Source: Beroe forskalii
Lineage: Eukaryota; Ctenophora; Nuda; Beroida; Beroidae
NCBI GenBank assembly: GCA_011033025.1
Contig: WFMF01000196.1
Coordinates: 186,001-250,000, forward strand
Direction: 5' to 3'
DNA: 64,000 nucleotides
Shown: piece after piece, positions 1,637 through 46,549 of the stretch
Position numbering within the stretch: position 1 is the first letter of the stretch
Layout of the letters: each line of letters starts with the position of its first letter
Made by a program: the position numbers and the translations under genes
Notes under the pieces: model-generated
What the model saw: only the letters and a program-made list of their open reading frames with translations
What the model was told of the DNA's origin: nothing
Database searches by the model: none

Positions 1637-3470
1637 TTAGAAGTGGGTTTTAAACAGATGAAAATTTGTAAAAATTTGATTTAAATGAGGTTGAATTCAT
1701 ATTTGTTGCCCATCTTTTCTCCGAATCTGAACTTTGGATTATTTATTTATTTAAAATCACAAATAGTATACACAACAAATTATACATTGTCATTTGCCCT
1801 ATATAAAATCATTCATGAAACATGAGGATGCCCCAACCAAAAGATTTGAATAATCATAGTTGAATAAAACATAAACATAGTAAAGCCTAACTTGTTGCAT
1901 ATGCTATGAGTGGGGCGCATGCAGAGTAGTCGAGACTACTCTATGCTGCACAATTACGCCCTCGAAAATCTTAAATCACACAATTGGCTGATTACATAGT
2001 TGGTAAAATTGCAAATATAATAAAATAATAATGATGACAAATATAATAAAATAATAATGATGAATTGCTTTTATTACTCTGAGTGATATAAAACTCTGAA
2101 ATATTGAAAAGATGTATGGAATGTGATGTGGGTGGTGAGCCTGATCCTGGTGGTCCCTATCATGAACAAAATATGCATCCCTTTTGAACCTTTTCCTCGT
2201 CTCCCTGTCCCTTACCAATCCTTCTGTCCCTTGCCTGTGTACCTTTCGCCTTTTATTATGCATGTCATAGGAAAACACTGGCAACAAATCGATGTTCTCT
2301 CATTATTCATGTTTACCAAAATTAGTCAAATTCACTGTCCGCCTTCATCCAGAGATATTCCTTTAGTTTAGTCTTAAAGGCTGTTAAGCAATTTTCAGAT
2401 CTTATATTCAATGGAACTTCATTCAACGTAGATGTGTACGGGTAGAAAAATGAGTTTTTGAAACGTCTATTCTAGGTTTTATAGAACATTCTAATTGGAG
2501 TTCATCAGATGATGACATACCCTAGTATATCGAGTTAATTTTGGGTCGGGGAGGTGCTTCTTCCTAAGATAACCAGGGATACTTGAAAATGGGCTTGGAT
2601 GATTGAACATCTTATAGAACAAGACCAAGTCATTATAATCAAACTTGTACTTCATCGGCAGGACATCTAGATTCTTCAATTTTAGGTGGTATTCTGATTT
2701 AGTGTAACTGCAGAAATCTTCACTGAAAACCCACTTAATGGCTCTTTTCTGCATGGCTTCAAACTTATCAATGTTTGTTTTGTGCACTGGCCTCCAGATT
2801 TGTGAACAATGCTCAAACTGTGACCGAATTATGGCTAAAAATATAATTTTACGTTGATTGGTGTTTCTATTGAAGGAGCAATTTCTTCGCAGAAGGCCAA
2901 TTTTAGAAAACCAAAAACCATTGTTCTTGAGTTTTTTTTATTTTTTTTTATTTACTGTTGTGTCCTCGACATTAATTTATAATCGCAAAATCTGCAAAAT
3001 TTTTTGATTCATATGCAAACCCTATGTAGATATTTCGTAATTTCGTTACGTTGCACCCCTCCCCCAGCAACAAAAAATTGCATCTATGACTTCGTTCAAT
3101 TTATTGTACGTCCAACTTACTATACGTCCAATTAAAGTTAGGAGTGGGTTATAAACAGATGAAAATGCAGACAATTTTGATTTCAATGAGCTTGGATTCA
3201 TATTTGTAGCCCATCTCATCTCCGAATCTGAACTTTGGATTAGAAAACCATTGTTCTTAAAATCTTGAGTCCTTATTTAATGTTATGTGTCCTTCGACAT
3301 TAATTTAAAATCACAAAATCTGCAATACTTTTTGATTCATACCTATTCAAATCCTATGAAAATATTTCGTAATTTCGTTACGTTGCACCCCTACCCCAAG
3401 TAACAAAAAATTGAATCTATGACTTCGTTCAATTTATTGTACATCCAACTTACTATACGTCCAATTAAAG
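1637..3470. repeat. Duplicated ~330-bp segment, first copy split by a LINE
   Basis: A segment of about 330 bp is present twice as a direct repeat. The intact copy spans 3138-3470. The other is broken into 1637-1740 and about 2906-3135, with LINE sequence between. Shared landmarks include TCTCCGAATCTGAACTTTGG, TTTCGTAATTTCGTTACGTT and the ending ACTATACGTCCAATTAAAG. The copies differ by point changes and small indels. The intact copy works as an empty-site control for the LINE insertion. Confidence 0.85.
1741..2905 (-). mobile_element. 5'-truncated non-LTR retrotransposon (LINE), reverse transcriptase C-terminal part
   Basis: On the minus strand, 2905 to about 2315 encodes the tail of a LINE ORF2: an LLRRNCSFNRNT segment, then QFEHCSQIWRPVHKTNIDKF and FEAMQKRAIKWVF, and finally FKTKLKEYLWMKADSEFD. 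This layout is typical of the region downstream of the palm domain in Jockey/CR1-like elements. A frameshift near 2495 separates the last part, so the copy is dead. The 3' untranslated region contains a stem-loop at about 1917-1952 (GCAGAGTAGT and ACTACTCTATGC arms) and ends in an AAAT-type tail near 1741. Its ends are defined by the intact paralogous segment at 3138-3470. Any target duplication is very short (about TAA). Confidence 0.85.
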
Positions 3471-3603
3471 AGAAAACCCAACGGGTTTTCTCGTAATCAA
3501 TATATTCCTCATCTCCTGTATTATCAGTCCTGTCACTTAAATGATCCCCTTTACTCCATGCATGTTTCCAGAATTCTGACCTATTTTACCTGTGATTTGA
3601 TTT

Positions 3604-3945
3604 GTGGGTCAGTGGTTTAGCGGTGTAGTGGTATCGATTTGGGCACAGGATCTAAAGATCATGAGTTGAAATCCCGGCCAGCACCACTGAGCTAAGGGTG
3701 AGAGATTTATTTTGAGCCTATGCAGCCCTACGGTTCACTCAGCCGAGCGTACAGGAGTACAGGAAACTGTGTGGGAGCCGGGAGGGGTAAATAAGGAGCT
3801 GCCCATTGCAGCGAAGTCTCGGGCAAATAAAGTATGGATTACACTTCCTTGACCGTCACTGGTTTGTTTCCTTTGATTCCTGTCATTGGCTGTACAGCTG
3901 CTGTTGGAATAGAATTAGAAGTAAAAACCTTTAAAAAAGTGATGG
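3604..3945 (+). mobile_element. tRNA-derived SINE, copy 1
   Basis: The head looks like a tRNA gene with an internal RNA polymerase III promoter: an A-box-like TAGCGGTGTAGTGG near 3619 and a B-box-like GAGTTGAAATCCC near 3664. The body (ACAGGAAACTGTGTGGGA, GAGCTGCCCATTGCAGCGAA) is shared with the copy at 7041-7285. The similarity continues past TGTCATTGGCTGTAC to GAAGTAAAAACC, so the element has a long 3' region. The open frame at 3834-4103 is a by-product of the element. Confidence 0.75.
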
Positions 3946-4039
3946 CCTGGCTCATGCAAACATCAATTAGCAAATTAGGCTTTTTATTAGCTCTATTGGA
4001 TAATGAAGGATTCAAAATTGAATCAACCTCGCAGACAAA

Positions 4040-4460
4040 AGCCATTCAAAAGGGTCAAAAAGCGTCAAAACGCGACCAAAAGTGTCAAAAGCGCCAGAAA
4101 TGAGTTCAAAAATGTGTAAAAACGCGACAAATGGCGCCCAAAAGTGTCGAAGTATGCGATAAAATGTGCCAAAAAAGCGTCAAAATGCGCCAAAAAGCGT
4201 CAAAATGCGCCAAAAAAAGACGTCAAAATGCACCAAAAACCGTTAAAATGCGACAAAAGGGTCAAAACGCGACAAAACACGTCAAAAGAGTACCCAAAAT
4301 TGCGTCAAAACGCGACAAAGCGCGTCAAAACTGTCCAAAAAATGCGACAAATTGTGCCAGACTATGTCAGAATGGTGTCAAATACAAAAAGTGTCGAAAC
4401 GCGACAAAAAGTGACAAAAAGCGCCTAGAATGTGTCAAAACATGCAAGAAAAATGACAAA
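4040..4460. repeat. Short-period AAAA-rich minisatellite
   Basis: Tandem variants of GCGTCAAAACGCGACAAAA and AAAATGCGCCAAAAAGCGTC, period about 13-14 bp. Open frames across it encode lysine/glutamine-rich repeats and are not credible genes. Confidence 0.85.
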
Positions 4461-4520
4461 CTGAAAATGTCGCCGTCCCCCTAGAAATGGGGGGTGTTAG
4501 AAGAAGAACACTGAACTCAC

Positions 4521-6448
4521 ATGGTAAGGGTCGCCAGATCGTGAACACCGTTTTGGTGAAGAATGGGCGTGAGGTGGGACAGTCCATGTTCTACCAGCCA
4601 CTCACTCAAACTCTGATCACTGTCCACTGAGGGGGAAACATTAAAATTAGGCTTTTACTGGCGATTGAAGAAGTAAAAACAACGTGGCATTAGCCAACAG
4701 GACACAGAACTCTTCTGTGATTGTAAACTTACCCTGTGCCTCAAAAAACTGGACATGTTTGTCTGAATTGGTAGGATGTGGTCTTATTTTATGTTCATAA
4801 CCCAACGGTAGAGATTTGTGCAAGAATTCTGTCTTATCTTCATTGATTACCACAGTATTATTGATAGGAAATTCTGCTTTAATTGGATCAGAACAAGCTT
4901 GTTCCAAATCAACCATTGGGGTCTCAGATTGGTTTGAATCTGTCGATTTCAAATCCCTGATTTGAGAAGCAAGCAAGATCACAATGTTAGTAATTTCAAT
5001 TTGGAACTTTGTTCTTGGTGATAGATTATTGATCATCCGACTGAGGACGTTCCACGTTTTACTAATTGAAGTAAAGTGTAGATTGGCATCAATTTTTGGT
5101 CCGTTTTTGACCAAGGAGTGGTTTTCATCATGGCAAGATTGCTGGTTTCCAATACATACACAGCAAAAGGAGGCCATAAAGATATCAGAGCTGATGATAT
5201 CAAATATTGAGTTAATACAGGAGGGTACAGACAATCTAAAATTGGTAACAGTACTTCATTATGGAACTATAATTTGATGCTAGATGAAAATATGAAAATA
5301 CTGAAAAACACAACAGCACAATATGAACTAAATATAAGTCAATCAATAACAAGTGATTAAGTATGGCTTTCCAGTGCAGAATTTATGACAAAAACAGAAG
5401 CTATAATCAATATACCAACTCTGGAGTGGACCTGGAATTCTAAGGATTCCACTTTTAAAATAAAGTCCAAGTTTGCAATTAAAGCAAAGCAAGGGGTCTT
5501 TCTTCATACTTTCATAATATCAATGAAGTTTGAGATCCAAAAATAACTCAACAAGAATAAACATATTTAAAAAGCCTTCTGCATGAGCTTATCCCAAGAA
5601 AACTTGATAACTTAGTATAATACTGAATAAAGTATCTGAAAAGTATTGAAAGCTATTGTAGACAAACTAACCTGAGGCAGTGTCAAGGGAGTCCATAGAA
5701 AGGTGCTTTTCCAGATGAGCCATCATTTTAGCTGTAGATGATATAATAGTTACTTATCAAGGGACGATAATTTATGTATGAAAGACATCCTAGATGATTA
5801 TTGGTAAGGGCCTGATTATTATGTAGTGAACATGATGCAAAGTTTTTACAAACATGTGCTACTACCCTCATTAATTTTATTAATGTGCAGTGTAAAAGGT
5901 CACAATAAACCCGGATCCATCCCCCTTCTCTACTTCTCTTCACTAAGTGTGTTGCTTAATTTCTTGATGCTTTGATTAATAACAAAGACCAAAGAGCAAG
6001 TTTCAGTTTCATTCAGGCAGGTGGTCACTGCACTTGACAGTGCTATGCCCTGGTACCAGGGGGTGAAAGCTGGGGGCCTACCACGTAAAAAGCTCTCGCA
6101 ATTTAAACACCCCAAAAGCTGAGGTAGGTATTGGACTGAAGATGGCTGCACACCACTCATCTTGGTGTGACTCACTTAGATCCTAACCCATATGTGTGTA
6201 GACCACTCGATTGAAAAAGGCCTCAATAAAGATGCGCGAAATTGTGTGCTTTTGATGGAATTTATATAGAAAGTTGAATCGCGCAGAGGAAATCTGATCG
6301 CCTTGATGGAGGCCTCTGTCAATCGAGCGGTCTGCACACATATGCGTACTGCTCTCCACATTGCATTACCTAAAGGGATCATGTTGGTGTTCAAGTATGG
6401 AGTTGGAGAAAAGTCTTGCAGATTGATGTCTTGAAGAAAGCACTCATC
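4521..6448 (-). CDS. SAM-domain protein gene (partial)
   Basis: Minus-strand exons, downstream to upstream: 4521-4626, 4733 to about 5235, about 5687-5737 and 6370-6448. The 4521-4626 exon, flanked by CCCCTCAG and GTGAGT, encodes a SAM start: SLSEWLVEHGLSHLTPIL followed by HQNGVHDLATLT. It joins in frame to the 4733 donor (CAGG then GTAAGT). The 4733 exon has no domain I recognise and ends GYEHKIRPHPTNSDKHVQFF-EAQ. The two small upstream exons (FLQDINLQDFSPTPYL; MAHLEKHLSMDSLDTAS) join each other in phase, but I could not find an in-phase acceptor between them and the 4733 exon, so an exon is missing or the join is wrong. The second half of the SAM fold is not visible below 4500. SAM domains mediate protein-protein oligomerisation. 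The specific family is unknown. Confidence 0.55.
6189..6344. mobile_element. MITE with ~36-bp terminal inverted repeats
   Basis: The left end begins CATATGTGTGTAGACCACTC. The inverted right end reads CATATGTGTGCAGACCGCTC, and the match continues to GGCCTC with few mismatches. The interior is about 85 bp and non-coding. Distant relatives with CATATGGATCGAT ends lie at about 13,797 and 20,262. Confidence 0.75.
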
Positions 6449-16700: not shown

Positions 16701-19700
16701 TCACATATTATTTTCACATACTACCTTAAAATCCTAATATTCCCCCTACTCCCTTAGCTCAGGGCCATCCTCAAGAGACAATCCCCCGAAGAGACTCTCT
16801 AGCGTAGAAGTAGATGGCTATCCTGGTGTTATGTGCCGCGATGGCTGTTCTTGGGGTGACTTGTCATGGAGCTGTCATTGACACTCAAGAAGAGGAAGGC
16901 GTCAACAGGGCTGCAGCTGAGACTGGGGTGAGTGGGAGGGGGCTTTCAGAGGGCGTTCTGAGACTGGGGCGAGTGGGAGGGGGCTCTCAGAGGGCGTTCT
17001 GAGACTGGGGCGAGAGTGGGAGGGGCTCTCAGAGGGCGTTCTGAGACTGGGGCGAGTGGGAGGGGGCTCTCAGAGGGCGTTCTGAGACTGGGGCGAGTGG
17101 GAGGGGGCTCTCAGAGGGCGTTCTGAGACTGGGGCGAGTGGGAGGGGGCTCTCAGAGGGCGTTCTGAGACTGGGGCGAGTGGGAGGGGGGCTCTCAGAGG
17201 GCGTTCTGAGACTGGGGCGAGTGGGAGGGGGCTCTCAGAGGGCGTTCTGAGACTGGGGCGAGTGGGAGGGGGCTTTCAGAGAGCGTTCTGAGACTGGGGG
17301 GAGTGGAGGGGGCTTTCAGAGGGCGTTCTGAGACTGGGGTGAGTGAAAGGGGGGCTTTCAGAGAGCGTTCTGAGACTGGGGTGAGTGGGAGGGGGCTTTC
17401 AGGGGGTGTTCTGAGACTGGGGTGAGTGGGAGGGGGGCTTTCAGAGGGCATTCTGAGACTGGGGTGAGTGGTAGGGGCTCTCAGGACCTGTTCTTTTAAT
17501 ACTTTAATAGACTGGGGTGAGTGGAAGGGGGCTCTCAGGGCTGCAGCTGAGACTGGGGTGAGTGGAAGGGGGTTTTCACTCTTTCAGAGGGTATTTTAAA
17601 TAGCGTTCAGAGCGTTATTTGAAATGCTCTTACAGCGATTTTTAATAACTCTCATAGCATTGTCTTAGATGTGTTCAGAGCATTGTCTAAGATGTGTTCA
17701 GGGCATTATCTTAGATATTCTTACTCAAACCAAGGTAACTGCGTGTGTCGCTGTCACAAATATCATAAAATTATGCTGTCATGGTAACTGCTTGTGGTGT
17801 TGTCATGATGAAATAATATTTTGTTGTCATGGAAACAGTTAGAGGTGTTGTCAAAGTTCTTCCCTCCCCAGGATTCTGGTTGTCACGGAGGGTACAACAT
17901 GCGGTACGACTTGGACTGTAGGAGGAAGAGGGCTGCTAAACGAGCTGCTGAGATGAGAGCTAAACGGGCTGCTGATCTGGAAGCGAGGATGGAAAGTCTG
18001 GAGAAAGAAGAGGAAATGGGGGAGGAGGATTTGAAAGAAGAGGAGGAGGAGAGGAGTGATGTCGAGAAGAGGTGATTGCGGGGAAACTTTAATCTTGAAT
18101 TCTCGCTTTACGATTAAAATGCTTTTTTGTATAGATTTTGGTTAAAATCTAACTTTCTCTTAAAATAATTTATTTTTCAGAGATGCTCAGGGCTACCAGT
18201 ACAACCGAGGCAAACGGTAAGGATTTCTAGAAACAAATTATCCTTGTTTTGCAACCAGAGTTAACCCTTTCATTTGCGTTGTGACATTGTTTCAAGATGT
18301 AAAGGCTTGACCCCACACCCAAGTCTTCTCATTTGTTTCACTTCAGTAAGTGATTTATTTTTTCAGGGATTCTCAAGGTTACGCGTACAACCGAGGCAAA
18401 AGGTAAGGATTTCTAGAAACAAATTATACTTGTTTTGCAACCCGGGTTAACCCTTTCATTGGCGTTGTGACATTGTTTCAAGATGTAAAGGCTTGACCCC
18501 ACACCCAAGTCTTCTCATTTGTTTCACTTCAGTAAGTGATTTATTTTTTCAGAGATTCTCAAGGTTACGCATACAACCGCGGCAAAAGGTAAGGATTTCC
18601 AATGTTAATTTATATCCGTTTTGCAAACCTTTCAATGGCGGTGTGACAACATTTCAAGATATTAAGGCTTTACCTTACGCTAATAACTCCTCTCATTTTT
18701 TGGTCCTAAAATAAGTGTTTTATTTTTCAGAGATTCTCAAGGTTACGCGTACAACCGAGGCAAAAGGTAAGAATTTTTAACCAATTAAACTTATTTGCAA
18801 CCCCTTCATTGGCAACAATTCAAGATGTAAGCGCTTTTTCCCACCCCCACCTTTAAACCAATACCGCCCCTCTTCAACCAATCACCATCCCCCTCTTCAA
18901 CCAATCTCCCCTCCTTTTAATCACCCCGCCCCCTTTAACTTATCATCCCGCCCCCTTTAACTTATCATCCCGCCCTCTTTAACTTATCATCCCGCCCCTT
19001 TAACTTATCATCCCGCCCCTTTAACTTATCATCCCGCCCCTTTAACTTATCATCCCGCCCTCTTTAACTTATCATCCCGCCCCCTTTAACTTATCATCCC
19101 GCCCCCTTTAACTTATCATCCCGCCCCCTTTAACTTATCATCCCGCCCCCTTTAACTTATCATCCCGCCCCCTTTAACTTATCATCTCGCTCAGAGCGGC
19201 AGATGAGCAGGGCTACAGGTATAGTCGTGGAAACGCAGAGGAGCAAGACTACAAATACGGCAGAGGAAACAGGTGCATCTTCATAAAACCTTCATCTGCT
19301 CCTTCATAAAACCTTCATCTGCTCCTTCATAAAACCAGTATCTGCTCCTTCATAATGCTTCCATCTGAATTCTGCCCCTTCATAAAACTATCATCTGCTC
19401 CATAAAGTATCATCATCTTCTCCTTTAAGATTTAACTATATCATAAACCAACTATAGCTACCTTTGCAAAACTATCAAAAGTAACCAATGTCTTCTCTTA
19501 CATATCTAGTACTTAAGCTCTAAACTTAAGAATTTAGGATCAAGTAGCATCTGAAACAGATGACTCCACCAGGGCATCAGAAGAACAGGCCTACAAATAC
19601 GGGAGGGGAGATTCCGAGGAACAGGCCTACAAGTACGGGAGGGGAGATTCCGAGGAACAGGCCTACAAATACGGCAGGGGAGACAGTGAAGAAGAGTAGA

Positions 19701-22700
19701 GCCTCTGAGAGGAGAAGAAAAGAAGAAAGAAGGGATGTGTTTTCCTCTGTCGTTCTGACATGGACAGTACATTATACATGCCCATAATATGTAAATATAA
19801 TCCATGAACACATAATTTGGAGGGCTATCCGAGCTATCTGCTTACATCCGAGTGGTATTTTCAATTCAATCCGAGATTGAGATACAATCATATTATTAGC
19901 GGTGAACTAAAGAATGATTTTATTTAGAAATTATAAGCTTTTCTTGCAATGAGATTTTGCCATAACATGCTGTAGCCTGTACATAGATTACGGATCTTTA
20001 GTTTACCTTGCATTCCAATAATTTACGACTTTCACTGAGTACCAATTCGAAAAAGCCTGTTGAAACTTTGTTAATTAGGCCCAGGTTGAATGATATTGTC
20101 ACTGGATCTCAACTAATGAACGTTTTATCGCGAGTAAGAAAGTATATCGATCACATTGAAAATTGCCTAACATCCATGTTATGACGTTATATCAGAATAA
20201 CATTTAGTGAATACTCGCATTCACAATTCACAGATTGCGAATGGTAATTCATATTTGTGTGCATATGGATCGATTGATAAAAACGCCAAAAAACTGTGCA
20301 TTCGACAGAAATTCTAGGAAAAGTAAATTGCGCGCTGAAAAATGCGGGTCTCTGTCAATCCCTTCATCGATCGATCCATGGGCTTAGTGTATATGCCATA
20401 TGGGTTATGCATTCTCATCCTAAAACTTCTAACAGCTTAGCACCATGGCTTTCCTGTTTCTCATTCTGATGATTACTACACTGGGAGTGGCTTGTCAGGG
20501 CGCTGCTATTGACTCAGAGAACGACCTGGGCTTCGATATGGAAGAGGTGAGCGGCAGTGAAATACTATGCCACCCTGGCACCGTGAGCCATTCATATTCA
20601 CACCATGGTAACTGATTGGTTTTCATGGTGACATTTTATTTCACTGACATGGAAACTGCTAGTTGTCATGATGACATCGCAATTCACATAGTTCGATGTC
20701 ATACTTGTGGCGGTGTCATAGTGGCGGTGTCATTGTGGCGGTGTCATAGTGACATAACATTTAACTGTAATGGTAACTGCTTGTTGTCATGGTGACAAAT
20801 TAATTCACTGTCATGGTAACTGCTTAATGTGTTGTCATGGTTACATCACAATTCACCTAGTTCACTGCCATGGAAACTGCTGGTTGTGTATTTATCAAGG
20901 TTCTCCTCCTCTCAGGAGTGTCTAACTGCTGCTAACATGCGATACAGCCTGGACTGTAGGAAGAAGAGGGCTGCTAAACGGGCTGCTGAGATGAGAGCTA
21001 AACGAGCTGCTATTGACTCAGAGAACGACCTGGGGTCGGCCATGGAAGAGGTGAGTCATTCATATTCACACCATGAGACCTATTTGGATATTTTCATGGT
21101 GATATTACAACTCACAGAGTTCAATGTCATGGAAACTACTTGTGGCGGGTCATAGTGACATAACATTTCACTGCCATGGAAACTGATGGTTGTCATGGTG
21201 ACATTATATTGCAATGTCATGGAAACTATTTGTTGTTGTGATGTTAATAAGGTTCTTCTCCCCTCAGAAGTGTAAATTAACTGGTTTTAACTTGCGGTAC
21301 GATCTGGACTGTAGGAAGAAGAGGGCTGCTGAGATGAGAGCTAAACGGGCTGCTTTTGACAGAGCCAACGGCCTGACTTCTGCCATGGAGAAAGCTGAAA
21401 GCAGAGGCGAACAGTAAGGCGTTACCAGGGAGACGTTACCAGGGCAACCAGGGAGACGTTACCAGGGAGGTGTTACCAGGGCAACCAGTGACACTTTACC
21501 AGGGTTACTATTGGAACATGTGAGATGAATAGAGCAAATGATAACAATCTTTGTATTTATAATTTCATAGTTTTAATCTGGGATTTTTAGAGTGGTAATT
21601 TGTGCCTGGGTTTTAATCTTTGATTTCATAGTTTACATTTTCTTAGTTATAATTAGTTTTTTAATCCAATTTCAGAAATCTTATATATGTATTGATTTGA
21701 CTTAATCTTAATTTGATTATAATTGTTAGCCCAGTGGAATTGTAACGTTAATTTGTTAAAACCTTCCAGAGATGTCAGTATCCAATTTCTCCTTCTCTAT
21801 AAATTCATCAAATTGGAAAATTTGCACAAGACTCTCTACATACAGAATTAAAAACCTGTTCTTTTGTTCGCGTTGAGATTTATTTCCCTCGTACATCTAA
21901 ACGTAAAAGTATAAAAACCATGAATCTAAAATTGTCGGAATTTTATCGGAGAGTAAGTCTATTTTACCAAGTCCTTCTTTTGGGGCAAAATCCCACCCCA
22001 GCCCCCAATCATCTACATTCCATTTCTTACCTTGTCCCTTCTAACCCGCATTTCCCTTCTTTTAACCTGCTAACCCTTCCCGCACTTATCCATCTAAATC
22101 ATCCCCTTACCCTAGACCCCTTATTCCACATTCACTTATCTCCTAACCCACTTAACCCCCTCACCTCCCCCTCGCCTCACCTTTTTCTCCCTTAACCCCT
22201 ATCCTCACCCCCTTATCCCCCTCGCCTCACCTTTTTCTCCCACTTGTCGTCCTCCTCTCTGATGTCATGGTACACGCGGCACAGCTCCATGGCTCGGAAG
22301 ACCAAGGAGGGCAGCGTGTACTGTATCCTCTTAACCCCTCCCTTCATCTCACCCTTATCCCCTCGCCTGACGCCTCACCCTTATCCCCTCGCCTGACGCC
22401 TCACCTTTTTCTCCCACTTATCGTCCTCCTCTCTGATGTCGTGGTACACGCGGCACAGCTCCATGGCTCGGAAGACCAAGGAGGGCAGCGTGTACTGTAT
22501 CCCCTTAACCCCTCCCTTCATCTCACCCTTATCCCCCTCGCCCGACGCCTCACCTTTTTCTCCCTCGCCTGACGCCTCACCTTTTTCTCCCACTTGTCGT
22601 CCTCCTCTCTGATGTCATGGTACACGCGGCACAGCTCCATGGCTCGGAACACCAGGGAGGGCAGCGTGTACTGTATCCTCTTGTCACTCCTTCTTTTTCG

Positions 22701-25700
22701 CTTCTAACCCTCCCCGCACTCACCCATATATCATCCCTTACCCCTAGGCCCTATCTCACCCTCCCCATCGCTTCACCTACTTAACCCCTAACCTCCCCCT
22801 CACCTTTTTCTCCCTTCACCTCACCCTTATCCCCCTCGCCCGACGCCTCACCCTTCCCCTTCACCTTCCCCTTATCCCCCTCGCCCGACGCCTCACCTTT
22901 TTCTCCCCTCACCTCCCCCCTTATCCCCTCGCCTGACGCCTCACCTTTTTCTCCCTTCACCCCCTTATCTCCCTCGCCTGACGCCTCACCTTTTTCTCCC
23001 TTCACCCCCTTATCTCCCTCGCCTGACGCCTCACCTTTTTCTCCCACTTATCGTCCTCCTCTCTGATGTCATGGTACACACGGCACAGCTCCATGGCTCG
23101 GAAGACCAGGGAGGGCAGCGTGTACTGTATCCCCTTAACCCCTCCCTTCATCTCACCCTTATCCCCCTCGTCTGACGCCTCACCCTTATCCCCTCGCCTG
23201 ACGCCTCACCCTTATCCCCTCGCCTGACGCCTCACCTTTTTCTCCCACTTATCGTCCTCCTCTCTGATGTCGTGGTACACACGGCACAGCTCCATGGCTC
23301 GGAAGACCAGGGAGGGTAGCGTGTACTGTATCCTCTTATCCCCTCCCTTCATCTCACCCTTATCCCCTCGCCTGACTCCTCACCTTTTTCTCCCTTCGCC
23401 TCCCCCTTATCCCCTCGCCTGACGCCTCACCTTTTTCTCCCACTTGTCGTCCTCCTCTCTGATGTCGTGGTACACACGGCACAGCTCCATGGCTCGGAAG
23501 ACCAGGGAGGGTAGCGTGTACTGTATCCTCTTGTCCCCTCCCGCTGTCAGGTGCTTCTTACACATGTTCAGGATCAGGAACTGCTGGTCTGGGATCTGGG
23601 ATGCCAGCTGGTGCACCACGCGACCTGTGGTTTGTAACACAAATTTGTAATGGATTGGCGGGGTTACATCTGAGACGCAGTTGTGGAGTAACTCAGTTCT
23701 GCGATGGGGTTGTTGGGTTATATATGGGGGGGATACCCGACCTGTGGTTGATTTGTGGGGTTACACTGATCTGAGGGGAGGGATCTGGGATGCCAGCTGG
23801 TGCACCACGCGACCTGTGATGGATTTGTGGGGTTACACAGTAATACAGATATGTGATGGAGTTGTGGGGTTACATATGGGGGGGGGGTGGAGATGAAACT
23901 GTGGGGTAACACAGATCTGAGATGGGGTTGTGGAGTAACACAGATCTGTGATGGATTTGGTGGGGTCACACATATCTGAGATAGGGTTGTGGGTTACATC
24001 TGAGGGGATAAATTGGTGGGATATTTGTGGATAGTTTGGGTGGCACGGCTCTGTTATGGATTAAGGTAGAGATCTGTTACGGATGGGGGGTAGAGACCTG
24101 CGATGGATTGGAGTAGAGACATCTGATGATGATTTCGGGGTACAGACACATTAAGAGAAAATTAGTCGCTATAATAAAATCCAATGACAATGAACAGTGA
24201 GGAGCCTGACCACATGACTCATTGGATAATAAGTAACGATTTTAATTTGATTCGATTTTACGCCAATGATCTATTTACACGATTTCATTACAAAATACTG
24301 TACACATTCACTATTATAATATCGAATGAATATAATACATGAATATAATACATGAGTTTGACAAGGAAGAGGTTATTAATTGAGGTTCACAAACTTTAGA
24401 TTTGCATTGGCGACTTGAACTATAGTTTTTCAGGCCTAACTATCGTCTACCCTCAATCCCTACACCCACGATTCACAGACAGCGGTTTTCAATATGCATT
24501 TCATAAAATGTACGCGATTTAAGTTTCCCGGTTCACTATATACGATATACTTTCCAGGAACTTATTGAATTCATAGGATAAATACTACAAGTTTCTCATT
24601 TTTCATGACCTGTACACAAACACATTTCACTCACCCACTAAACTCTGTTCAATCTCAAAGTCCTCAGGGTCATCAGGTTCTGTGGCCTGGTCTGTCTGCT
24701 CTGATATCAGGCACTGGATCATGTTCAGGAACAGATCCACCTGGGAAACATGAATCCATAAAAATTGGCAGTATCCAAGAAGCCCGACCACCATCGCGGA
24801 ATTCCGCGCGGAATTCCGTGGTTAAATTCCGCGCGGAATCAACAGCGGAATCAACAGCGGAAGATACTGCCTAGTGCCTAGGCTTCTTGGATACTGCCTA
24901 AAAATTATCCAAAATCCTGAACCATAGTTTTCTATTGTTACTTGAAGTTACTTCACGCAGACATAGCTGGCATTGGAAATCCCTATAAAAGTATCAAACC
25001 GAGTGTAAGAACTACGAGCTTTACAATAGTATCACTTACATAATACGAAAATCGAAAATGTTTTTTGCAATACTAGACCATACAGGAAATTTAGACATGT
25101 TGACGACATCAATTCAACATTCTAAAACCGAATCATGACGCCACTCTCAAAGACCTATATATTAGTTGTTTGCAACTCAAAAGACAGTACCTGATCATGC
25201 GAGTCGATGTGTGTGTCCGTCTGAATGACATGCTCCGTTATGTAGAAACACAGCTCCTTCCTGACTTTGTAATCGAGGAAGGAGAAAAGAGGAGAGAAGT
25301 GTTTCAACTCTAGGATTGTCAGCACATCCTCGTAGTGGTCCACGGGAACGCGCAGCATTCTGCTTAACTCCGCTGAGCAGCCTTTCGCGCGGGAGCTGGG
25401 GAGGGAATAGTCAGGTGAAATAGTCAGGGTGAGGGATGAGTGAAGTGGGAATAGGCCGAGGGAAGGGAACTTGGAATAGGCCGGGGAGGGATGTGGGAAT
25501 AGACCGAGGGAAGGGAAGTGGGAGTTAGGTAGGAATCAGGGAGTAGGCCGAGGGCGGGTTAAGGGAAAGAATCAAGAGTGGATAGTTTGGTACATAAGGG
25601 GGTGGAAAAGAGATGAAAGCAATAATTGCTCTTCCAAAAAACATCTCCCTCACAACTCACTTGTCCTGGTCGAATATGTTGAAGGTATTCTCGAGGACCT

Positions 25701-43917: not shown

Positions 43918-44981
43918 ACTGGTTCTAGTTGTGATACCTTATTGGCCCTTATTTAACCAGCCCTTGCACACAAAAAACAACTTTGAGATTTGTGTCCAAA
44001 GAGAGAAAGAGCCGGTTAAAAAGACGAGATAAAGTGAGGCCGACTTAATAAAGGCCGGTTATCTAAGTCAAATGAAACTTTTATTACTTGGCTTATACTT
44101 GAACGACATTTTGAAGCATAGATATTAACCTTAATCATGATATCACACCCGTAGTTGGGGTTTTGGTGCAATTTTATGAGGATGAATTGGTTTTCTTGTA
44201 TATTTTTGAACAAATATTCCTAGGTTTGGCATTTGACAACTGCTTGAAAAATTTTTGTTCAAGGGGACGGCTAAAATTATTCAAAAGTGATTCCATTCTT
44301 GTCCATAGGACCGATTATAGAAGGCCTGCTGAATAAAGGCCTATGAGGTATTGCTCATTGCTATTGAGTATACTTATAGATGACACCTTGAATTCTATTT
44401 ATTTCTATTGAAGTATTTAGAGAAAATAGCTACTTATGTGAACTATCAGTCGTTTGTGAATAATTAGTTGTGAATAATTAGTTGAAACTCAAAGAAAATT
44501 ATACTTGCTAGAAATGTCTTCAGCTATTCAATATATAAACAGTAAATTTGTTGTCAAAATCTATTGTTTATCTTAATGGGGAATTATTTCTTCATTCGAC
44601 ATTCAGTATGTTTCCCAAACAATATTAAAATTGTAAAATAACTGCTTTTTGAAGTTCCTATGTATTGCGAATAAACAAATAATTTCAGTCCTAACAAAAC
44701 ATTAATTTGCAGTACCATGGATTCATCCTGGTTACTGTGTGAAGATTGAAACTGTACTTTAGAATACGTTAGATAAATAGCTACGTGGGATCTATCAGGG
44801 CATAAGAAAATGGATTCTCACAAGAATTTTGTTGTTTGTTTTGCACAGTGATCCCATTGCGAAATTATTTAGCTGATTATCGACCAGTTGACCATTGACC
44901 ACCCTATCTTTGCATTTCTGATATGTTAGCTTTTTTAATTTGGGTCATTGGCATACTTTCATACGACCTAATTTGTTTTAG

Positions 44982-46549
44982 GATACAATGAGGTGATGGA
45001 GAAGGACGGCACTGGAAAAACTCCGAAGAACTCACACCGGCATGGCCATGCTCATCATACTCATGGACACACACCTCACACTAAATTCTACTCTGATATA
45101 ATCCGAAAGAAGCCAGGCCACTCTAGAGGACACAAGAAAAAAGCTGAACTTAGCTTTGGTCAGAAAGTCAAACACCTGCTTACATGTTACAAACCCGATA
45201 ATCATGAGATAGCCGGAGATGATTCGTGTGTCGGCAGCACCATTTCACGTTTAATCAGCGATACTTCTCATGTTGTCGGCGATACTTCTCGAGTAGTCGG
45301 CGATACTTCTCATGTAGTCGGCGATACATCTCGAGTAGTCGGCGATACTTCTCATGTGGTCGGCGATACTTCTCGAGTAGTCGGCGATACATCTCAAGTA
45401 GTCGGCGATACATCTCATGTAGTCGGAGATACATCTCATGTGGTCGGCGATACATCTCATGTAGTCGGAGATACATCTCATGTAGTCGGAGATACATCTC
45501 ATGTAGTCGGTGAAACCTCCGATGTAATCGGCGATACTTCTGATGTTGTCGAAGATACTTCTAACGAGGTAGGTGAAGTTAGCGATACTTCTCATGTTGT
45601 CGGCGATACATCTCGAGTAGTCGGCGATACATCTCAAGTTGTCGGCGATACTTCTGATGTAGTCGGAGATACATCTCATGTAGTCGGCGATACATCTCAT
45701 GTAGTCGGAGATACATCTCATGTAGTCGGAGATACATCTCATGTAGTCGGAGATACATCTCATGTAGTCGGTGAAACCTCCGATGTAATCGGCGATACTT
45801 CTGATGTTGTCGAAGATACTTCTAACGAGGTAGGTGAAGTTAGCGATACTTCTCATGTTGTCGGCGATACATCTCGAGTAGTCGGCGATACATCTCAAGT
45901 TGTCGGCGATACTTCTGATGTAGTCGGAGATACATCTCATGTAGTCGGCGATACATCTCATGTAGTCGGAGATACATCTCATGTAGTCGGAGATACATCT
46001 CATGTAGTCGGAGATACATCTCATGTAGTCGGTGAAACCTCCGATGTAATCGGCGATACTTCTGATGTTGTCGAAGATACTTCTAACGAGGTAGGTGAAG
46101 TTAGCGATACTTCTCATGCAGTTGGCGATACTTCTCAAGAAGTCGGCGATACTCAATCGGTGGGCAATAATTCTGGTGTAGTCGCTGATGAACCAGCAGA
46201 ATTGGAAGGTGGAAATACTCCCTGTGAAAACTTTGATGAAGCAGAAAAAACTGCAAATGCAGAATCGGAAAATGTCGACGAAACTGCTCAGGATTCTGCA
46301 GCTGCAGAAGTTGAAAATGTTGCTGAAGCAAAACAACCTCCTTGTCCAGAATTGCAGGTCTGCGATGCTCCGGCTGAAGCTGAACATGCTTCATTCACAG
46401 AATTGGAAGTCTACGATGCTGACTGTGAAAATACTGATAATGATGATATTGAAAATTCGCAAACTACAGAACTGCAGGTCGATGACCCTCCTCGTATAGA
46501 GGTCGATGAGGAAGATAATACTCCTGTCACGGAATTGCAGGAAGAATGA
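44982..46549 (+). CDS. Heptapeptide-repeat protein (D-T-S-H-V-V-G repeats)
   Basis: A single long open exon, preceded by a possible acceptor (TTTGTTTTAG at 44,981), ends with TGA at 46,549. It encodes about 520 residues: a His-rich basic N-terminal region (HRHGHAHHTHGHTPHTKF, then KKKAELSFGQKVKHLL), about 40 tandem heptads of the form DTS[HRQD]VVG from about 45,260 to 46,160, and an acidic Glu/Asp/Thr C-terminal region with repeated ELQV or ELEV. The heptads form a 261-bp higher-order unit present almost three times (starts near 45,322, 45,583 and 45,844) with near-identical DNA. No signal peptide or membrane segment is seen. The function is unknown. A His cluster suggests metal binding, an inference. 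The antisense frame 45,251-46,387 is also open but I treat it as a shadow. Confidence 0.7.

Follow-up and report, generated by a model that had tools for sequence, protein, structure and literature searches.

Tandem genes for candidate peptide precursors in the ctenophore Beroe forskalii: a shared cysteine-bracketed peptide and an array of predicted amidated repeats

Oxytocin/vasopressin, somatostatin and CCAP are cyclic peptide hormones with two cysteines. In ctenophores, precursors of amidated peptides are named for Bolinopsis mikado and Mnemiopsis leidyi, and the available sections of the report list NPWa, FGLa, RWFa, VWYa, WTGa, NVFa/NIFa1 and 2, TFQa, LNSa and PARa (PMC9525235). In Bolinopsis, mass spectrometry identified acidic residues as major sites of cleavage, and the same work describes N-terminal pyroglutamate as conserved (Hayakawa 2022, PMC9525235). 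Ctenophores may be sister to all other animals. Whether neurons had a single origin is a question on which their peptidergic nerve nets can shed light. Two adjacent genes, called gene 1 and gene 2 here, were analyzed in a 64-kb stretch of the genome of Beroe forskalii (assembly GCA_011033025.1, contig WFMF01000196.1, positions 186,001 to 250,000), which is referred to as the window. They are very probably tandem paralogous preprohormones of this ctenophore that encode secreted signals, most likely neuropeptides. As judged from their sequences, the pair are real, intact and probably functional peptide precursors.

The gene models were made by joining exons in the window from the sequence alone, and genome-wide searches covered the 216-Mb assembly of 1134 contigs. 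Gene 1 (plus strand, 16814-19699) has eight exons and a product of 220 amino acids, and gene 2 (plus strand, 20445-21417) has three exons and a product of 128 amino acids. The original prediction, made from the letters of the window, had placed two adjoining plus-strand genes at 16814..21417, and the joined exons indeed form one open frame for each. All introns (9/9) are of the GT-AG type with consistent phases, and none of the 11 exons contains a stop, a frameshift or a damaged splice site. The exons, with the means by which each was recognized, are the following.

16814..16927, plus strand: gene 1 exon 1, signal-like N-terminus and acidic spacer, phase-0 donor (exon joining, hydropathy)
17872..18071, plus strand: gene 1 exon 2, Cys-bracketed peptide and acidic spacer ending VEK(R) (exon joining)
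18181..18216, plus strand: gene 1 exon 3, 36-nucleotide phase-2 microexon ending (R) (exon joining, genome pattern search)
18367..18402, plus strand: gene 1 exon 4, 36-nucleotide microexon ending (R) (exon joining, genome pattern search)
18553..18588, plus strand: gene 1 exon 5, 36-nucleotide microexon ending (R) (exon joining, genome pattern search)
18731..18766, plus strand: gene 1 exon 6, 36-nucleotide microexon ending (R) (exon joining, genome pattern search)
19195..19272, plus strand: gene 1 exon 7, two repeat copies with acidic N-flanks, ending (R) (exon joining, genome search)
19573..19699, plus strand: gene 1 exon 8, three repeat copies and stop (exon joining)
20445..20546, plus strand: gene 2 exon 1, signal-like N-terminus and spacer, phase-0 donor (exon joining)
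20916..21050, plus strand: gene 2 exon 2, first Cys-bracketed unit (exon joining, genome search)
21268..21417, plus strand: gene 2 exon 3, second Cys-bracketed unit, protein end and stop (exon joining, genome search)

In gene 1 the signal-like N-terminus is followed by an acidic spacer, one Cys-bracketed peptide, a further acidic spacer and nine copies of Q-x-Y-x-Y-x-R-G. In gene 2 the signal-like N-terminus precedes two units, each made up of a Cys-bracketed peptide and AAEMRA-KR, and there are no amidated repeats. The signal-like segments end in VTCHGA (gene 1) and VACQGA (gene 2), their hydrophobic cores have mean Kyte-Doolittle values of 3.1 and 2.8 over 11 residues (hydropathy only), and small residues are present, by eye, at positions -3 and -1 of the putative cleavage sites. 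Signal cleavage would fall near the G-A bond of CHGA in gene 1 and of CQGA in gene 2.

The motifs that make up this layout were counted against 200 first-order Markov copies of the window. Q-x-Y-x-Y-x-R-G (searched as Q.Y.Y.RG) occurs nine times, with a mean of 0.015 expected and a maximum of 1; C.{10,13}C[RK]4 occurs three times (mean 0.06, maximum 2), and AAEMRAKR three times as against none in the Markov copies. These three occurrences agree with the original prediction in placing AAEMRA between basic sites in both genes, as do the Cys-bracketed cores, one in gene 1 and two in gene 2. The excess of repeats, the Lys-Arg (KR) pairs at five exon junctions and the Gly amide donors of gene 1 likewise support the layout of a neuropeptide or hormone precursor that had been proposed. 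We infer expression, processing and a signaling role of both genes, and a neuropeptide rather than another secreted peptide.

Genes 1 and 2 are paralogues. Over the first 23 residues 12 are identical, which bears out the proposed relationship of the signal peptides and was reached in 0 of 20,000 shuffles. BLASTP of the N-terminal parts gave 38/72 identities with an E value of 3e-14 in a single comparison, and in both genes a phase-0 intron separates the signal exon from the Cys exon. The second Cys exon of gene 2 is a repeat of the first, so that, besides the gene, an exon must have been duplicated as well. The original prediction of paralogues from one duplication therefore holds for the paralogy and fails for the single event. 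Its statement that amidated repeats are confined to gene 1 was confirmed, gene 2 having no amide-donor Gly.

A proprotein convertase would cut both precursors at RRKR, RKKR and KR, after which the basic residues would be trimmed. Both genes would then yield Cys-bracketed peptides of the consensus C-x4-5-N-[ML]-R-Y-[DS]-L-D-C, presumably closed into a ring by one disulfide. These resemble oxytocin/vasopressin, somatostatin and CCAP in having a short two-Cys ring beside a basic cleavage site. They differ from these hormones in the 11-12 residues between the cysteines and in the N-[ML]-R-Y-x-L-D core, and match nothing in Pfam (over cut-off) or PDB. The Cys-bracketed peptides might instead be non-neuronal secretions, for instance defensive or digestive ones, with the short amides as the only signals. 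Such a role would suit gene 2, from which only Cys-bracketed peptides are predicted, and Beroe, which is a predatory animal. A single two-Cys ring next to a tetrabasic site is, however, just as consistent with cyclic peptide hormones, and the sequence is not decisive between the two; we consider the secretion alternative unlikely, if the best placed of those weighed here.

Under the preferred reading of both genes as preprohormones, gene 1 alone would in addition release nine short Q-x-Y-x-Y-x-R peptides, in which Gly would be converted to a C-terminal amide and Gln to pyroglutamate (pQ). The predicted products are pQGYAYNR-NH2 (three copies), pQGYQYNR-NH2, pQGYRYSR-NH2, pQDYKYGR-NH2 and pQAYKYGR-NH2 (three copies), and the two-gene locus thereby offers precise peptide masses that can be tested. 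Following RG, four copies have KR; the last five are preceded by DE or EE, and their Gly is followed by Asn (two) or Asp (three) and never by Lys-Arg. The residue before Arg reads N, N, N, N, S, G, G, G, G over the nine copies. In the four microexon copies KR and Gln are separated by DS or DA, whose removal would be needed for a pyroglutamate end; otherwise an untrimmed amidated product would result. The five later copies would be cut at their acidic N-flanks, with no KR past the Gly.

A comparable arrangement was observed at another locus of the genome (L033, C714:96500-104000). Its frame at 3385-4260 encodes 292 amino acids in a single intact exon. The N-terminus is hydrophobic, and QPLGLG is present in ten copies, preceded by SSEE (seven copies), SSKE (one) or ELKE (two) and each followed by G or S. 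It is likely an amidated-peptide precursor and hints at a broader use, in this genome, of acidic N-flanks together with a non-basic residue behind the amide Gly. The pGlu-x-Y-x-Y-x-Arg-amide products are favored because of these flanks and the acidic-site cleavage in Bolinopsis. If the later copies were cut at the single Arg within YGR, they would give pQAYKY-NH2 and pQDYKY-NH2 in place of Arg-amides, and G-R does precede the second G in QDYKYGRG and QAYKYGRG. The YNRGKR copies, on the other hand, need the Arg inside the amidated peptide, and one common form for all copies would favor the Arg-amide, which makes cleavage within YGR distinctly improbable.

In gene 1, four repeat copies lie one each on separate 36-nucleotide phase-2 exons and are followed by KR, which is rebuilt across 5/5 junctions (exon 2/3 to exon 6/7), its Arg being created by splicing. 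The peptides encoded by exons 4, 5 and 6 are identical, and the three copies in exon 8 differ from one another at 2, 6 and 6 of 36 nucleotides with 0 amino acid changes. The older microexon pairs are better conserved than the introns duplicated with them: exons 5 and 6 are identical at 34/36 positions as compared with 100/139 aligned bases for introns 4 and 5 (p 0.004), and exons 4 and 6 at 35/36 as compared with 98/139 for introns 3 and 5 (p 0.0003), where 14 gapped positions were excluded from each intron count and the tests overlap in data and are not independent. The layout of one peptide per microexon illustrates how a multi-copy precursor can grow through exon duplication.

Secreted structural, mucus or adhesive proteins with Tyr- and Arg-rich repeats, in which the basic sites do not serve to free peptides, would also have Tyr-rich copies with charged residues, and low-complexity repeat frames are common in this genome (4/6 loci examined). 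The copies are short, though, with processing sites between them; the KR rebuilt at all five junctions, the Gly in the amide-donor position of every copy and a gene 2 devoid of such repeats argue further against such proteins, which we think very unlikely. Least credible of all are decaying or never functional duplicates with frames still open, for which the richness of introns and flanks in minisatellites speaks, given 11 undamaged exons and exclusively silent changes, both between the repeat copies of exon 8 and between exons 4-6.

The preferred preprohormone reading might extend to a dual hormone system, with a ring peptide from both genes, a Tyr-x-Tyr-x-Arg-amide from gene 1, and gene 1 acting as a splice-adjustable cassette; we put this forward tentatively, as doubtful. 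Retention of the intron after exon 2, 3, 4, 5 or 6 stops the frame directly past KR (VEKR-stop, GKR-stop), and that of the intron after exon 1 or exon 7 gives no immediate stop. Skipping of the symmetric 36-nucleotide microexons leaves the frame intact. Retention of intron 2 would turn gene 1 into a precursor of the ring peptide only, like gene 2; if the splice-cassette reading is true, splicing could adjust the dose of peptide or restrict the output to the ring. In part, the stop after KR simply follows from GTAAG or GTGA donors at introns of phase 2, and it indicates a possibility, not regulation. Intron 1 of gene 1 contains a 41-bp minisatellite of about 14 copies (window 16917-17563). The donor context CTGAGACTGGGGTGAGT has six occurrences between 16917 and 17547, and a longer stretch from the exon 1 end is repeated at 17540. 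Donor-like sites thus occur downstream of the real exon 1 donor, because the minisatellite takes in the exon 1 end and the donor.

Domains of the enzymes that the proposed processing would call for are present in the genome. PF03712 (PAM, the amidating enzyme) scored above its cut-off at five sites, which lie on three contigs, and PF01483 (the P domain of convertases) matched at eight places on five contigs.

Several observations weigh against the preprohormone reading. PAM and P domains are not specific to neuropeptide processing and thus do not prove it, and one match to each of the two domains contains in-frame stops. Five of the nine copies lack KR after Gly, so that their C-terminal cut is assumed by analogy, and GKR by itself is not enriched (11 observed, 19 expected in the Markov copies). 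The youngest microexon pair, exons 4 and 5, shows no excess conservation (33/36, as compared with 146/150 for introns 3 and 4, p 0.13), and exon 3 has 78-83 % base identity to exons 4-6, with two residues changed. For the Cys-core exons, the ratios of replacement to silent substitution rates (dN/dS) of 0.32, 0.30 and 0.40, which count in favor of the reading, derive from just 4-7 silent and 6-10 replacement changes and include a gene 2 exon 3 aligned by hand, with one residue dropped and four gapped. Finally, no orthologue in other species was found in the databases searched.

A search of about 5.8 billion proteins gave no match at E <= 1 for gene 1 or gene 2 (4332 and 275 candidates), although it relies on shared exact 5-mers and divergent orthologues may be missed. 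Pfam gave no family at E <= 10 for gene 1 and, for gene 2, a single 13.6-bit match below the cut-off of 27; PDB gave no match for either and NCBIfam none for gene 2. Three weak NCBIfam matches of gene 1 (best E 0.00012, 19.6 bits at a cut-off of 650) were attributed to repeat composition and rejected. Among the proteins, Pfam and PDB, no match of a whole protein to a known non-peptide family was found, which the original prediction had named as evidence that would overturn it. Its description of the genes as undescribed stands for the same three collections. Sachkova in 2021 reportedly predicted more than 100 precursors in Mnemiopsis, and a published relative of genes 1 and 2 may exist. As far as searched, the two genes would represent a new sequence family of a known kind.

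Elsewhere in the B. forskalii genome the Cys core was not found at E <= 10, only these three exons matching, and the pattern QxYxYxRGKR matches the four microexons alone. The start of gene 2 matched only gene 2 itself in a search that missed the signal exon of gene 1 and is hence insensitive. With the repeat region of gene 1 as query, 101 matches were obtained at E <= 10, among them exons 7 and 8 of the gene itself and none of the four microexons. Six of the 18 other loci taken from this search were examined, of which two resemble peptide precursors (L012, QMPGRG-LSEE; L014, QPLGLG) and four are low-complexity repeats. In L032 (C547:203000-210500), the frame at 4140-4994 encodes 285 amino acids with 23 acidic-flanked QMPGRGLSEE copies. 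They share the GRG ending with the later gene 1 copies, and the frame has the look of a further peptide precursor, for which no signal exon was identified.

Like the Bolinopsis and Mnemiopsis amidated precursors, gene 1 comes from a ctenophore and would give short amidated peptides with basic and acidic flanks and an N-terminal pyroglutamate (PMC9525235, available sections). Compared by name alone with ten of the 13 B. mikado precursors, none of which ends in a YNR, YSR or YGR amide, the gene 1 peptides have just the final Arg-amide in common with PARa (PMC9525235). Cnidarian precursors of the Antho-RFamide type, in the sections at hand, share with gene 1 the acidic residues before Gln, the many copies and the Gly as amide donor (PMC9545775). 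They contain another peptide and have classical convertase signals on its C-terminal side, whereas 5/9 copies of gene 1 have no KR there (PMC9545775). The most unusual features of the locus are the ring peptide and amidated repeats in one precursor and the array of one peptide per microexon. In the literature searched no published "NRamide" peptide of ctenophores was found, titles and abstract beginnings on neuropeptide precursors with microexons yielded schistosome work only, and the wording "each exon encodes" was not met in papers from the peptide-literature search, each being weak evidence of absence. In the genome paper on Beroe ovata, the word "neuropeptide" does not appear in the main text.

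COX1 of this assembly lies on a 13,339-base contig (C1134), and its translation agrees at all of 500 residues with the UniRef entry of Beroe forskalii, which identifies the host as this species or one very close to it; ctenophores are not among the groups that the original prediction proposed to search. Of the mitochondrial COX1 contig, 10 kb contained no tRNA according to ARAGORN (bacterial mode), and tRNAscan-SE likewise gave none in the published B. forskalii mitogenomes, according to the available part of that report (PMC6991124). Compared with COX1 as generally known, the gene in this assembly has several AGA/AGG codons at conserved Arg sites and ATA at conserved Ile sites. In non-bilaterian mitochondria, AGA/AGG likewise encode Arg and ATA encodes Ile.

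Rfam gave 0 matches in the window at gathering scores. A frame of 525 amino acids at 44972-46549 contains tandem GDTSHVV/GDTSRVV repeats and matches the Pfam grass antifreeze beta-roll with 32 bits at a cut-off of 30, which may reflect repeat composition alone. On the minus strand, six tandem copies of a VPS35 exon lie at 22231-23526, all encoding the same 32 residues and each followed by a GTGAGG donor. Pfam Vps35 is matched above its cut-off by the frame at 23407-23760.

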